Source: Pseudomonadota bacterium (GTDB taxonomy: Bacteria > Pseudomonadota > Gammaproteobacteria > Burkholderiales > REEB80). Taken from it: DNA of 64,000 nt. Below, piece by piece: positions 11,034 to 17,707 of the stretch; position 1 is the stretch's first letter; each line of letters opens with the position of its first letter. The stretch covers positions 62,001 to 126,000 of the forward strand of contig JAGXAQ010000004.1 in the NCBI GenBank assembly GCA_018971485.1. The letters run 5' to 3'. The notes beneath the pieces are model-generated. The model was not told where the DNA came from and did not search any database. It saw only the letters and a list, made by a program, of their open reading frames with translations. Position numbers and translations under genes: made by a program.

Positions 11034-12107
11034 TTAAATGGATTGACTATGTTGCTTGAGTGCCCATTCCACATGTTCACGAACGATTGCAGAAGAGTGA
11101 TTCATACGCATCTTTAAGCAGTTAATAATGTCAGGGTTGGAAGGAGCATTGCCTAATGCTACTGCTATGTTGCGTAACCATCGTTCATGGCCAATCCTGT
11201 AAATCGCTGATCCAGCAAGATTTCTTTTGAAAGTGGCTTCATTCCAAGAGAAAAGCTCGATTAGGGAAGCTGAATCCAGGCCATGACGGACCTGAAAATC
11301 GGCTACAGTGGTTGTTTTTGCAAATCGGTTCCATGGACAGGCAAGCTGACAGTCATCACATCCATAAATACGGTTACCTAGCAAGGGTCGAAGTGCTGTT
11401 GGAATGGAGCCGTGATGCTCAATGGTCAGGTAGGAGATGCATTTCCTGGCATCTAGCCGGTAAGGGGCAATGATGGCCCCGGTCGGGCAGATATCGATGC
11501 AGGCTGTGCATTGCCCACAATGTTCTTGTGCTGGTTTATCCGGTGACAAAGGAAGGTTTGTCACAATTTCGCCCAGAAAGAAAAGGGAACCCGCCTCCCG
11601 TGACAGTAAAAGCGTATGTTTTCCACGCCAGCCAAGACGCGTTTTTCGTGCCAGGGCTACTTCCATAACTGGAGCGCTGTCCGAGAAAATACGAAATGCA
11701 TAGCCCCCGATATTTCCTTGGATTTTTTTGACAAACCGATTTAATTTTTGGCGCATGACTTTATGGTAATCCCGACCAAGTGCATATCTTGATATATAGG
11801 CTGTTTCAGGATTGTTTAGAATGCCTTGTGCATCCTTGGCATCGGGCCAGTAATTCAGACGGCAAGAAATAATGGTAATTGCCCCAGGTACCAGTTCTGT
11901 TGGACGGGCCCGCATGGTGCCATGTTTTGACATATAATCCATGTCACCATGGAATCCTGATTCAAGCCATGATATCAGGCCGGCTTCTTCATGGCTTAGA
12001 TTGGTATCGGTGATTCCAATATGTGAAAATCCCAGGTCTGCTGCCCAGCCCCGGATATCTTGAGTGAGCTGATAACGGTCAATTTCTTTATCAGTTTTAG
12101 GAGACAT
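11034..12107 (-). CDS. queG: epoxyqueuosine reductase
   Basis: Two 4Fe-4S Cys motifs (CGQCTACIDICPTGAI, YGCDDCQLACPWN), GRDYHKVMRQKL; ORF track start is 12137, internal ATG at 12107. Confidence 0.95.
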   Translation of the reverse strand: MSPKTDKEIDRYQLTQDIRGWAADLGFSHIGITDTNLSHEEAGLISWLESGFHGDMDYMSKHGTMRARPTELVPGAITIISCRLNYWPDAKDAQGILNNPETAYISRYALGRDYHKVMRQKLNRFVKKIQGNIGGYAFRIFSDSAPVMEVALARKTRLGWRGKHTLLLSREAGSLFFLGEIVTNLPLSPDKPAQEHCGQCTACIDICPTGAIIAPYRLDARKCISYLTIEHHGSIPTALRPLLGNRIYGCDDCQLACPWNRFAKTTTVADFQVRHGLDSASLIELFSWNEATFKRNLAGSAIYRIGHERWLRNIAVALGNAPSNPDIINCLKMRMNHSSAIVREHVEWALKQHSQSI

Positions 12108-12579
12108 GAGGTTAAAGTTCGTGGAAACGTCAACCATTATACGTGAAATTGTGAGTGAAACAGAGATGCGGGACTTAGGGGGTTATCTTGCAGAAATACT
12201 GCGGCCTGGTCATATTGTTGCACTTAGGGGGCCATTAGGAGCCGGGAAAACAACCCTTGTCAGGGCTATTCTCTGGGCTAAGGGGATTAAAGGCCCCGTG
12301 CGTAGCCCAACCTATACACTGGTTGAAAGCTATATGATATGCGGGGTAAACTTACACCATTTTGATTTTTATCGATTTAGCGAACCGGCTGAACTTGAGG
12401 AAGCGGGTTTTCGTGAATGTTTTTCTGACTCCAGTATCTGTTTGGTTGAGTGGCCGGAAAATGCAACAGGGTTTTTACCTCAAGCTGACTTGACCATACG
12501 AATTGAATATATGGAAAAAGGTCGCAGAATCTATTTGACTTCCAATACGGTTAACTTGGATTTATTGAGGCATATTTAA
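12106..12579 (+). CDS. tsaE: tRNA threonylcarbamoyladenosine biosynthesis ATPase TsaE
   Basis: LRGPLGAGKTTLVRAIL P-loop, SPTYTLVESY, LHHFDFYR, VEWPE. Confidence 0.95.
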   Translation: MRLKFVETSTIIREIVSETEMRDLGGYLAEILRPGHIVALRGPLGAGKTTLVRAILWAKGIKGPVRSPTYTLVESYMICGVNLHHFDFYRFSEPAELEEAGFRECFSDSSICLVEWPENATGFLPQADLTIRIEYMEKGRRIYLTSNTVNLDLLRHI

Positions 12580-12597
12580 AGTTAAGAGGGGAAACTG

Positions 12598-13821
12598 TTG
12601 GGATTCAGGTGGATATTATTCTGTTTCGGGTTACTATTTATAGTCCCTGCCTCTCATGCTGAAAACTTGGTTAAGGCTGTCCGAATATGGCCTTCCCCTG
12701 TTTATACCCGTATCGTTATTGAATCGAGCCATCCCATACCGTATCACCTGTTCAAACTGCAGAATCCACAGCGGGTTGTGCTGGATTTGCATCAGGTAAA
12801 GTTTCGGGGTGTAATTGAAACGCTTCCTGCCTTACTTAATTCAAATAACCCTGATATTAGTGAAATACGGGTTGGCCGTTTTAACCCCGAAACTGTTCGT
12901 ATTGTGCTGGCCATAAAGCATCCTGTAGAACCTGTTCTGGCGAATTTGAAGCCTATTGCCAATTATGGATATCGGCTTGTGTTGGATATTTACCCCAAGC
13001 AACCTATGGATGCTATTGCGCGTTTGGCCTTACCAGGTAATGTTTCGCCAGCTCGTGAACTACCTCCTTCTGTTCGGGAGGAACCCCCTCATATGGCTAC
13101 GCAGCATGATATTATTGTTGCCATTGATCCAGGGCACGGGGGAGAAGATCCAGGGGCACATGGCCCGGATGGGGTTCTGGAAAAGAATGTGACTTTAGCA
13201 ATTGCCTATAAGCTGAAGGCAGCCATTGATAGGCTCCCTGGCATGAAAGCTGAATTGACTCGAACAGGGGATTATTATGTTCCTTTACAGATGCGTGTGA
13301 TAGAGGCCCATAAGATGCATGCTGATTTATTTGTATCAATCCATGCCAATTCCCAGCCTTACGGAGATAGTGCGACAGGCACTGCGGTATATGCATTATC
13401 TGAGCACGGGGCAACAAGCGCCGCGGCACGGTTGCTGGCGAGAAATGAGAATTCTTCAGATAGTATTGGAGGGGTAACATTACCCATGCATGATACTGAT
13501 CTGGCTAAAACGCTTGTTAATCTGGAGCAATCTGCAACGATAGATGATAGTATCAAATTAGGAAATGACGTGCTGTCGAAGGTAGAAAAATTTCATTCTC
13601 TGCACTACAAGAGAGTGCAGCAGGCAGCTTTTGTTGTTTTGAAATCGTTGGATATTCCTTCCATTCTTGTTGAGACAGCCTTTATTAGTAACCCAGTTGA
13701 GGAAGCAAGATTAAATAGCCCGGTCTTTCAGAAGGAAATGGCCCGTGCGATAGCTCATGGGCTCTATAAATATGTTCAGTCAGATCCTTCCTTTGACCAG
13801 CAATTAGCGAATAACCAATAG
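12598..13821 (+). CDS. N-acetylmuramoyl-L-alanine amidase with N-terminal AMIN domain (AmiB/AmiC type)
   Basis: Signal peptide, AMIN-like region, IVAIDPGHGGEDPGAHG, SIHANSQPY, SILVETAFISNP; TTG start. Confidence 0.94.
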   Translation: MGFRWILFCFGLLFIVPASHAENLVKAVRIWPSPVYTRIVIESSHPIPYHLFKLQNPQRVVLDLHQVKFRGVIETLPALLNSNNPDISEIRVGRFNPETVRIVLAIKHPVEPVLANLKPIANYGYRLVLDIYPKQPMDAIARLALPGNVSPARELPPSVREEPPHMATQHDIIVAIDPGHGGEDPGAHGPDGVLEKNVTLAIAYKLKAAIDRLPGMKAELTRTGDYYVPLQMRVIEAHKMHADLFVSIHANSQPYGDSATGTAVYALSEHGATSAAARLLARNENSSDSIGGVTLPMHDTDLAKTLVNLEQSATIDDSIKLGNDVLSKVEKFHSLHYKRVQQAAFVVLKSLDIPSILVETAFISNPVEEARLNSPVFQKEMARAIAHGLYKYVQSDPSFDQQLANNQ

Positions 13822-13876
13822 AGCAGCATAGATGTTCAGGATGTTTTCCTTTGTATTTTTAATGGGTAACTAAATC

Positions 13877-15625
13877 ATGCCGATGATTCGGGAACTGCCT
13901 GATATCTTGATTAACCAGATCTCAGCTGGTGAAGTTGTTGATAGGCCGGCATCAGCGTTGAAAGAGCTTCTTGAAAACAGCCTGGATGCTGGAGCTAGCC
14001 GTATAGATGTCGTTCTTCGCGAAGGAGGAATAGATCAGATTTGTGTCCATGACAATGGAGTTGGAATTGATTCGTCCGATCTCCCCTTAGCCTTGTCTCG
14101 TCATGCGACGAGTAAAATTGTGTCCCCTGCCGATTTAGAAAACATAACCAGTATGGGGTTTCGTGGAGAGGCGCTGGCTTCAATTGCCTCGGTGTCCCAT
14201 CTGGTGCTGGTGAGTCGAACTGCTGCTGATTCCCATGCTTATATGATTGAAGGAAAGGGAGGTGTGGTGAGTAGTGTGCGTCCGGCTGCACTTGCTTCTG
14301 GAACCCGAATTGAAGTTTCGGATATTTATTTTAATACACCTGCCAGAAAAAAGTTTCTGCGTGGTGCCAGTACAGAATTTGGCCATGGGAAAACTGTTTT
14401 TTTGAGGGTAGCGCTTTCCAGACCTGATGTTAGTTTTAGTTTGGTTCATAATCAAAAGCTTCAGGTTAAGCTTTCGGTGAGCAAGGATGCTTTAGCGGAT
14501 CGTGTTCGGGAGGTATTGGGGCAGGATTTTTTTGACGAGTCGCTTGAGATTAATGAAACAGTGGGTGGTATGCGAATTTATGGGTTTATTGCCCGACCAA
14601 CTTACTCAAAAGCCCGAAGAGACGGACAATACATTTATGTGAACGGGCGTTTTGTGCGGGATAAGCTAATTATCCACGCATTACGTCAGGCTTATGCTGA
14701 TGTATTGCATCATGATTGCTATCCCGTCTATGTGCTGTACTTGACGCTCCCTTATGATCAGGTGGATGTCAATGTCCATCCTGCAAAGACTGAAGTTCGA
14801 TTTCGTAATGCAAATCTGGTCCATCAATTCGTTTTTCATGCTTTGGAAAAGGCTTTGTCCGTTTCGATGCAGATTAATTATTCGGTTCCTGTTGCCGCAT
14901 CAGCTTTGATTGATCGACACATAGGGAATCAGGTGCAACAGTTTATGTCTTTCCCGGCTGAACAGGGGGAATTTTATGCCCCTCTGTTTTCTGTTCCAAA
15001 AGAAGAAAATCATATGGCTGGCATTGTTGCGATGGAAGAAGATTTTCCTCTTGGCTACGCAATAGCTCAATTGCATGAGATTTATATTCTATCCCAGAAT
15101 AAAAACGGGTTGATAATTGTTGACATGCATGCTGCACATGAACGAATTTTATATGAGCGGTTAAAACAGGCTCTGGATGATAATTTAATCCAGATGCAGT
15201 CATTGCTGGTTCCCTTGTCATTTCAGGCTACACCCCAGGAAATGGAGTTGGTCGAGTCTCAACCTGAAACCTTGTACACACTTGGTTTTGATATTGCGAG
15301 GCTTTCTCCATCTATGCTTGCGATTCGGGGGGTGCCAAGTTTGCTTGCTGAATCGGATATAGTGGATTTGGTTCGAAATGTTCTGGGAGAAATTGAACAT
15401 TATGGCTCCAGCCGTGTAGTTGAGGAACAAAGAAATACACTGCTTGCTACCATGGCATGTCATGGGGCTGTTCGAGCGAACCGCCATTTGTCCTTGCATG
15501 AAATGAATGCCCTGTTGAGAGATATGGAAAGGACTGAGCGTTCGGGGCAGTGTAATCATGGTCGGCCCACTTGGCATGAATTTTCTATTGCTGAAATAGA
15601 TCGCTTGTTTATGAGGGGTAAATAG
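13877..15625 (+). CDS. mutL: DNA mismatch repair protein MutL
   Basis: IRELPDILINQISAGEVVDRPASALKELLENSLDAGA, GFRGEALASIASV. Confidence 0.98.
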   Translation: MPMIRELPDILINQISAGEVVDRPASALKELLENSLDAGASRIDVVLREGGIDQICVHDNGVGIDSSDLPLALSRHATSKIVSPADLENITSMGFRGEALASIASVSHLVLVSRTAADSHAYMIEGKGGVVSSVRPAALASGTRIEVSDIYFNTPARKKFLRGASTEFGHGKTVFLRVALSRPDVSFSLVHNQKLQVKLSVSKDALADRVREVLGQDFFDESLEINETVGGMRIYGFIARPTYSKARRDGQYIYVNGRFVRDKLIIHALRQAYADVLHHDCYPVYVLYLTLPYDQVDVNVHPAKTEVRFRNANLVHQFVFHALEKALSVSMQINYSVPVAASALIDRHIGNQVQQFMSFPAEQGEFYAPLFSVPKEENHMAGIVAMEEDFPLGYAIAQLHEIYILSQNKNGLIIVDMHAAHERILYERLKQALDDNLIQMQSLLVPLSFQATPQEMELVESQPETLYTLGFDIARLSPSMLAIRGVPSLLAESDIVDLVRNVLGEIEHYGSSRVVEEQRNTLLATMACHGAVRANRHLSLHEMNALLRDMERTERSGQCNHGRPTWHEFSIAEIDRLFMRGK

Positions 15626-16566
15626 TGGCGACTCCCATTGTCATGCTGATGGGGCCTACTGCAGCTGGGAAAACCCAGGTAGCACTTGAAATAGCAAAGA
15701 GATTGCCTGTTGAAATTGTGAGTGTGGATTCGGCGAATGTATATTCGCAGATGAACATTGGAACAGCCAAGCCGGATTCAGTCCTACGCCAGCTTGTCCC
15801 ACATCATCTTATTGATATTATTTCACCCGTTGAAGCTTACTCCGCAGCTCGGTTTAGGCAAGAAGCGATAGAGACTATTGATGCTATTCATGTAAGAGGT
15901 CGGATCCCATTGCTGGTGGGGGGTACTTTTTTTTACTTTAACGCTCTCCAAAAGGGAATCCATGATCTTCCTGTCACACAACCTATTGTTCGTTTACAGA
16001 TAGAGCAGGAAGCGAAACTGCAAGGCTGGCCTGCAATGCACCGCCGCTTACAGGGTATTGATCCGGCCATGGCAGAAAAATTGAATCGTCATGATGGTCA
16101 ACGAATCGGGCGGGCACTCGAGATTTATGAGCAAAGTGGCTATCCCATGAGCGAATGGTTGGCCAAACCCGTATATAATTCATTTGATTATCCAACGATA
16201 CGTCTTGTCTTGGAGCCGGAAATCCGTAATGTGCTTCATGAACGGATTGCGGTGAGGTTTCGAAATATGTTGACTGCTGGTCTTGTCGATGAGCTTCAAG
16301 GGTTAAAAAAATGTTATGAATTGCATGAGTCTATGCCCAGTATGCGCTGTGTAGGGTACCGCCAGGCTTGGAAATATTTGGATGGATTAATTGATTTCAA
16401 GGAGATGGAAGAGGCTGGAATTGCCGCTACCCGGCAACTGGCAAGAAGACAGTTGACCTGGCTTCGTTCCATGAAAGATGTCAATCGAGTCAACTGTTTT
16501 GATGAAAATGTTGTTGAAAAAAGTTATCAGCTTGTTCTGCAGGCGCTTGACAGGATTAAGGGCTGA
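15625..16566 (+). CDS. miaA: tRNA dimethylallyltransferase
   Basis: MGPTAAGKTQVALEIA, VSVDSANVYSQMNIGTAKP, VGGTFFYFNAL; 1-bp overlap with mutL. Confidence 0.97.
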   Translation: MATPIVMLMGPTAAGKTQVALEIAKRLPVEIVSVDSANVYSQMNIGTAKPDSVLRQLVPHHLIDIISPVEAYSAARFRQEAIETIDAIHVRGRIPLLVGGTFFYFNALQKGIHDLPVTQPIVRLQIEQEAKLQGWPAMHRRLQGIDPAMAEKLNRHDGQRIGRALEIYEQSGYPMSEWLAKPVYNSFDYPTIRLVLEPEIRNVLHERIAVRFRNMLTAGLVDELQGLKKCYELHESMPSMRCVGYRQAWKYLDGLIDFKEMEEAGIAATRQLARRQLTWLRSMKDVNRVNCFDENVVEKSYQLVLQALDRIKG

Positions 16567-16587
16567 ATTAAGAAGGATAACCGGAAG

Positions 16588-16596
16588 TTATCCACA
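16588..16596 (+). promoter_or_regulatory. DnaA box, TTATCCACA
   Basis: Perfect match to TTATNCACA. Confidence 0.7.
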
Positions 16597-16772
16597 TTTT
16601 GTTTTTTAGAGCCAAGAGGATGAAAGAATAATTCCTGTGGGCTCAGGTTTTGAGTAATAGCATTTGTTTTTATGTAAAACAGGTAGTTAAAAAGAAATTT
16701 AAGACATCTTCATTCAATTCCCATGTTAATGAATTTGCATAGTCCACTGGTTAAATGAGAGCGCAGATCAAG

Positions 16773-16781
16773 TTATGCACA
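16773..16781 (+). promoter_or_regulatory. DnaA box, TTATGCACA
   Basis: Perfect match to TTATNCACA. Confidence 0.65.
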
Positions 16782-16784
16782 AGA

Positions 16785-16793
16785 TTATCCACA
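16785..16793 (+). promoter_or_regulatory. DnaA box, TTATCCACA
   Basis: Perfect match to TTATNCACA, 3 bp after the previous box, same orientation. Confidence 0.7.
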
Positions 16794-17095
16794 GTTTGTA
16801 TTAAACATAAAGAAACAAGCTGGCGTGTTATTTTTATTGTTATTGTAAGATTTGAGTAAGGTTAACATAGTTTTCCAGATTAGATCCAGTTTTTTTTATA
16901 AAAAAATAATCATATTTATCTATATGATTTTAATATATTAAAATGATACCAGTCTAAATGCCTGGATTAGATCTGTGAGGATAGCAAGGGACGGTGTTTA
17001 TGGGTATCAAGGAGCTGTTTTTCAGCTAGAAATAATAGCCTTGCCTAATTTTTTCTGGGCGACTAAAGTTCTGCTATTGTTAAATTGAAGGAGAG

Positions 17096-17707
17096 TTGAA
17101 ATTGTTGTCGATGATTGCGGCTGCTGGTTGGCCAATTTGGCCTCTTATTTGTGCTTCCATCATTGCGCTAGCTATTATTGGAGAAAGGATCTGGTCACTT
17201 AATCGCAGCGAGCTTGCTCCTTCCGGGTTATGTGCCGAGATTGAGGATGCGGTGGGCAAAGGTAAAGTGAATGAGCAGATGATTGAAGCCCTGGCCCATC
17301 ATTCTCCGTTGGGTCGCGTGTTAGCTGCAGGGGTTCGTAACATGAATGCCCCGCGTGAAGTCATGAAAGACGCGATTGAAGATGCGGGAAGGGTGGAAGC
17401 ATATGCTTTGGAGCGATATCTGGCTACCCTGGGCACTATTGCTTCAGTTAGCCCGTTGCTAGGGTTATTGGGTACGGTTATTGGTATGGTGGATATTTTT
17501 GGTGCCTTGACGCCACAGGGTTCTAGCCCCGCCATATTGGCCCAAGGAATTTCGGTTGCGCTTTATAATACTGCGATGGGGCTAATAGTAGCGATTCCCA
17601 GCTTGATTTTTTATCGTTATTTTCGTCAAAAGGTAGCCGGTATAGTTCTGGATATGGAAACACAGGCTGTTCGTTTGGTAGAAGTTGTGCACTGTCCACA
17701 GGGTTAA
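17096..17707 (+). CDS. exbB: MotA/TolQ/ExbB proton channel family protein
   Basis: ATLGTIASVSPLLGLLGTVIGMVDIF, ISVALYNTAMGLIVAIPSLIFYRYF; TTG start. Confidence 0.93.
   Translation: MKLLSMIAAAGWPIWPLICASIIALAIIGERIWSLNRSELAPSGLCAEIEDAVGKGKVNEQMIEALAHHSPLGRVLAAGVRNMNAPREVMKDAIEDAGRVEAYALERYLATLGTIASVSPLLGLLGTVIGMVDIFGALTPQGSSPAILAQGISVALYNTAMGLIVAIPSLIFYRYFRQKVAGIVLDMETQAVRLVEVVHCPQG

Follow-up and report, generated by a model that had tools for sequence, protein, structure and literature searches.

A double DnaA box upstream of exbB, probably derived from a DARS-type element that recurs across the order

The DNA analyzed here, referred to as the window, is a stretch of 64,000 nucleotides (G000:C32:62001-126000) from a 1.93-Mb genome in 35 contigs. 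Between miaA and an exbB/tolQ-family gene, the window holds an intergenic region with three DnaA boxes and an AT-rich stretch, in which the following features were recognized:

15625-16566, plus strand: miaA, the upstream neighbor in the window's genus only
16567-17095: miaA-exbB (tolQ-like) intergenic region, 529 bp, 31.8% GC
16588-16596, plus strand: accessory DnaA box TTATCCACA, perfect and identical in the sister species
16773-16781, plus strand: DnaA box TTATGCACA, at the position of box III of the DARS core
16785-16793, plus strand: DnaA box TTATCCACA, at the position of box II of the DARS core, 3 bp past box III (double DnaA box)
16799-16807, minus strand: slot of box I, here TATTAAACA with 4/8 consensus positions, TGTGNATAA (inverted) in most of the order
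16847-16912: conserved block of 66 bp, 82% identity with the sister species, extending into the AT-rich stretch
16890-16948: AT-rich stretch of 59 bp with 4 G/C, between imperfect inverted repeats CAGATTAGATCCAG / CTGGATTAGATCTG
17041-17069, plus strand: candidate exbB promoter TTGCCT-17-TAAAGT, found by eye; the sister species has the surrounding block conserved as well
17096-17707, plus strand: exbB/tolQ-family gene, heading the operon exbB-exbD-lpxK-kdsB-adk downstream of the element

All three DnaA boxes are perfect copies of TTATNCACA on the plus strand and the last two are separated by 3 bp, exactly as an earlier note on this DNA had described them; the 59-bp AT-rich stretch reported there was also found again and is the lowest-GC 59-mer in the 64 kb. 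The number of boxes by itself was discarded as evidence, since the window has no excess of them (3 observed vs 2.99 expected). The objection that three boxes could occur here by chance is justified for the count, but not for the arrangement: given the size and base composition of the genome, a tandem pair with 3-bp spacing is expected 0.0018 times, and the pair at the window site is the only one present. It reads TTATGCACA-AGA-TTATCCACA and consists of two near-consensus boxes on the same strand within the distance of 2-3 bp that defines a double DnaA box.

Some further observations concern the surroundings of the boxes. The box at 16588 overlaps the palindrome GGATAAC-CGGAA-GTTATCC (16575-16593), which is followed by a T-rich tail, and both together form a possible miaA terminator. 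The 66-bp block ends in poly-T/poly-A where the AT-rich stretch begins, and the gap around this block has diverged. The inverted repeats span 16876-16975, with the second arm lost in the sister species. The candidate exbB promoter was absent from the output of the promoter scan, and the search for structured RNAs gave nothing but one distant tRNA. Upstream, the genes from 11034 to 16566 are ordered queG-tsaE-amidase-mutL-miaA. This resembles the E. coli order queG-nnr-tsaE-amiB-mutL-miaA, with E. coli datA at the other end of that region, and is probably a coincidence.

Comparison of the two species of the genus revealed that the three boxes are identical at 26/27 positions, while identity is 58% over the whole gap and 42% over the 176-bp segment that separates box 1 from box 2. 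The boxes are thus under constraint.

In the order, the tandem pair was detected in 85/398 genomes and 0 times in the reversed control, and several pairs were located immediately upstream of an exbB homologue. For this reason, the upstream regions of exbB were collected. Alignment on the pair yielded an element of three boxes, TTATNCACA-NNN-TTATCCACA-GNNNN-TGTGGATAA, with gaps of 3 and 5 bp, which precedes exbB(tolQ)-exbD-lpxK-kdsB. All three boxes are present in 67 of the 99 exbB upstream regions, the pair only in 6 and neither in 26, in a set that is partly biased, as it comprises 28 unselected regions belonging to the top ExbB matches (15 with the full element, 1 with the pair only, 12 with neither), 60 regions chosen by hand down the ExbB list (45 full, 3 pair only, 12 neither), and remaining regions that came from searches using the pair or the DNA. 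In the correct orientation, 71 regions reached a score of at least 19/24, on the opposite strand 4, and altered gap lengths reached the score threshold only where sub-pairs were shared. The consensus of the 67 full cores is TTATCCACA AAG TTATCCACA GAATT TGTGGATAA, in which box II hardly varies, nor does the beginning of box I.

The distance from the core to exbB ranges from 79 to 814 bp (median 173). On the other flank, a divergent gene with xseA-like sequence, which from this sequence we take to be xseA, was found in the ten relatives that were read, at the place held by miaA in the window's genus. In families without exbB at the locus, the core is still located ahead of lpxK, and some families have no exbB-linked copy, which corresponds to the 26/99 regions lacking any core. 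In family f8, some genomes carry rows of up to five DARS-like cores within ~0.9 kb upstream of exbB (G237:C11:513551-514394 with five cores in 0.85 kb, G207:C12:22534-23398, and G325:C18:106166-106888). Among 13 complete genomes, the exbB-linked core has a mid-replichore place like the E. coli DARS, the median distance from dnaA being 0.24 of the genome (compared with 0.21 for E. coli DARS2 and 0.33 for DARS1), with dnaA serving as proxy for oriC, a proxy that can be 64 kb off in the window's genome. This position is not independent evidence because it is set by gene order. In the comparison with relatives, which the earlier note had proposed, the pair recurs across the order at exbB, and box I of the full core is gone in the window's genus.

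The order-wide element equals boxes III-II-I of the E. coli sites DARS1 and DARS2, with identical orientations and the same gaps of 3 and 5 bp. Written with box III first, DARS1 of E. coli MG1655 is TAATACACA-TGG-TTATCCACA-GGAAT-AGTGGATAA (22/24) and DARS2 is TTCTTCACA-ACT-CTATCCACA-GAAAA-GGTGAATAA (21/24). As a control of specificity, box I scored 1-4 of 8 at the E. coli double boxes of polA, purH, nrdA, datA, and oriC, compared with 7 in both DARS. The scores for boxes III, II, and I are 8,8,2 for polA, whose double box is TTATGCACA-AAG-TTATCCACA, 7,8,1 for purH, 8,7,2 for nrdA, 6,8,4 for datA, and 8,8,4 for the window. IHF and Fis sites belong to DARS2, while DARS1 works without them.

With DARS1 and DARS2 the window site shares the same-oriented boxes III and II at a spacing of 3 bp (8/8 each), the sequence of box II, and the intergenic place. 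It differs from them in its neighbors, which are exbB-lpxK and not uvrB or mutH, and in box I: opposed to box II across the 5-bp gap, TATTAAACA agrees with box I at 4/8 positions. The sister species scores 7, 8, and 4 for boxes III, II, and I, so that both members of the genus have kept boxes III and II and lost box I at the exbB copy, while the orthologues of the order have the full III-II-I geometry. Searching the window for box I at other gaps gave nothing convincing; TTTGTATTA (gap 1) is 2 mismatches off and not kept in the sister species. Because the window copy fails in the opposed box I, which is part of what defines a DARS, it was not filed as one.

For genome scans with the full pattern, up to 3 mismatches of 24 were allowed. 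Matches were obtained in 306/398 genomes of the order (0 reversed-control matches), in 305/370 genomes of the class (1 reversed-control match), and in 145/299 genomes of the phylum sample. In the latter, matches outside the class came mostly from family f229 (35/39 by count), and the large families f228, f234, f235, f238, f241, and f245 had no full-pattern match. Studies of DARS concern E. coli, with reports for its close relatives (PMC4245941, PMC8682772), and a review also mentions beta-proteobacteria (PMC5742627). A search of the open-access literature for DARS in beta-proteobacteria, Burkholderia, or Pseudomonas, or together with exbB or xseA, gave nothing on point and no paper on DARS in the window's order, with earlier notice of a wider conservation being possible.

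Both members of the genus retain a full DARS-type core at another place, between glyA and map. In the window's genome it reads TTATCAACA-TGG-TTATCCACA-ACCTT-TGTGAACAA (22/24; G000:C15:119859-119893; L125, L214), and in the sister species it scores 21/24 (G001:C13:106844-106878; L271), with box I matching at 7/8 and 6/8 positions, respectively.

From these comparisons, all of them of sequence, we consider it fairly probable that the window carries the genus copy of an order-wide DARS-core DnaA element at exbB-exbD-lpxK-kdsB, which has lost box I, holds DnaA, and leaves recharging to the glyA-map core. The suggestion of the earlier note that the site could be of the DARS or datA type or a DnaA-regulatory locus is supported, and can be specified as a DARS-core-like element with box I lost. 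In DARS, the opposed boxes I and II reportedly let ADP-DnaA pair head-to-head and lose its ADP (PMC8682772, PMC5742627), and they are described as essential (PMC8682772). In relatives with the full core, ADP-DnaA on boxes I and II would meet in this way, ADP would be released, and DnaA would be recharged with ATP about midway along the replichore. Because box I is absent from the window copy, the head-to-head step should fail there, and the site would hold rather than recharge DnaA. The III-II double box and the single box 185 bp off would bind DnaA strongly, and the copy may act as a DnaA sink or as a regulatory site, while reactivation of DnaA in the genus, if any, would be done by the glyA-map core. 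The site can thus be described as a putative DARS-derived double DnaA box, in which DnaA binding is retained and recharging probably lost. In E. coli, 15/16 regions found by DnaA ChIP contain double boxes 2-3 bp apart (PMC11317965), from which we firmly predict binding of DnaA at 16773-16793.

Since the opposed boxes I and II essential to DARS are missing, the window copy may also be a plain regulatory double box. A transcriptional site, at which DnaA on the double box controls exbB-exbD-lpxK (and xseA in relatives) and ties envelope or repair genes to the replication cycle, appears somewhat unlikely. E. coli DnaA does control genes via such pairs (PMC11317965), and the window, with its two same-strand boxes 3 bp apart, has scores closer to those of polA, purH, and nrdA than to those of DARS; moreover, the same operon is always downstream of the element. 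However, the tenfold variation in the distance to exbB (79-814 bp) and the ~250 bp that separate the double box from the candidate promoter are not what a simple operator would lead one to expect. The inverted box I, which is missing from transcriptional sites, is present in most relatives, so that the orthologues of the order differ from the E. coli double boxes both in this third box and in following an operon at variable spacing.

That the three boxes absorb DnaA or promote ATP hydrolysis behind the fork, as a titration locus of the datA type, is unlikely. The strong pair, the third box, and the AT-rich flank would suit such a locus, and E. coli datA is likewise an intergenic DnaA-box locus without box I of DARS. 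The function of datA requires an IHF site between the DnaA boxes. An IHF-spaced box set is not apparent at the window site, where an IHF site between the boxes was looked for by eye only and none was evident, and the orthologous sites have the geometry of DARS, not of datA.

A decaying relic, in which box I is gone, the rest is eroding, and the glyA-map core has taken over, would account for the loss of box I in both species next to a full core elsewhere; the identity of 26/27 positions in the double box and the single box at 16588 within a gap of 58% overall identity makes this quite improbable in our view, and a DARS-derived site that would still hold DnaA is the reading we prefer.

Regarding the replication origin, GC skew was read from selected genome stretches. 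It is positive in every sampled stretch of contig C32 (nearly the whole contig), which bears out the previous remark that G exceeds C on both sides of the boxes without a flip, and it is likewise uniform around the orthologous site of the sister species. In contig C22, the skew has values of about -0.1 to -0.16 as far as ~243 kb and of +0.1 to +0.15 at 267 kb and beyond, with the crossing near 254-258 kb. An AT-rich gap of 466 bp between flgB and lgt (G000:C22:256754-257220; L042:9755-10220) is located at this flip and contains DnaA boxes at 256949 (-), 256982 (-), and 257040 (+). Because the skew flip and a box cluster of its own coincide there, the flgB-lgt gap is most likely the oriC of this genome. 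The dnaA gene adjoins gyrB and rnpA at 193 kb of C22. Its neighborhood, which the earlier note had proposed to check for a box cluster, has one DnaA box ahead of dnaA; the cluster lies 64 kb off in the flgB-lgt gap, so that this genome has its origin candidate and its dnaA gene at separate places. A box cluster with an AT-rich element thus exists both at the window site and at C22:256.8-257.2 kb, but the change from negative to positive skew is found only at the latter, which refutes the window site as main origin. A chromosomal or ectopic origin made up of DnaA boxes and an unwinding element is extremely improbable at the miaA-exbB gap, even though the boxes are followed by the 59 bp with the lowest GC content in the window.

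The genome was also searched for Hda as a sign of RIDA. With PF00308, no Hda was seen in the window's genome; the other two matches (L040:1090-1965 in contig C21 and L041:1021-1812 in contig C14) were rejected as Hda and by eye resemble the IS21 helper ATPase.

Tentatively, and going beyond the single locus, the DARS core may be ancient throughout the class, anchored to lpxK in the window's order, and shared with a small number of further families in the phylum; the window site may then be a DARS converted from recharging to holding DnaA, with the conserved 66-bp block as its partner. The 35-bp pattern separates DARS from other DnaA sites of E. coli, and the majority of the genomes in the class contain it. 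Thereby, recharging of DnaA would become testable far outside E. coli, for which the window's genus, with one intact copy and one copy lacking box I, would offer a natural mutant pair.
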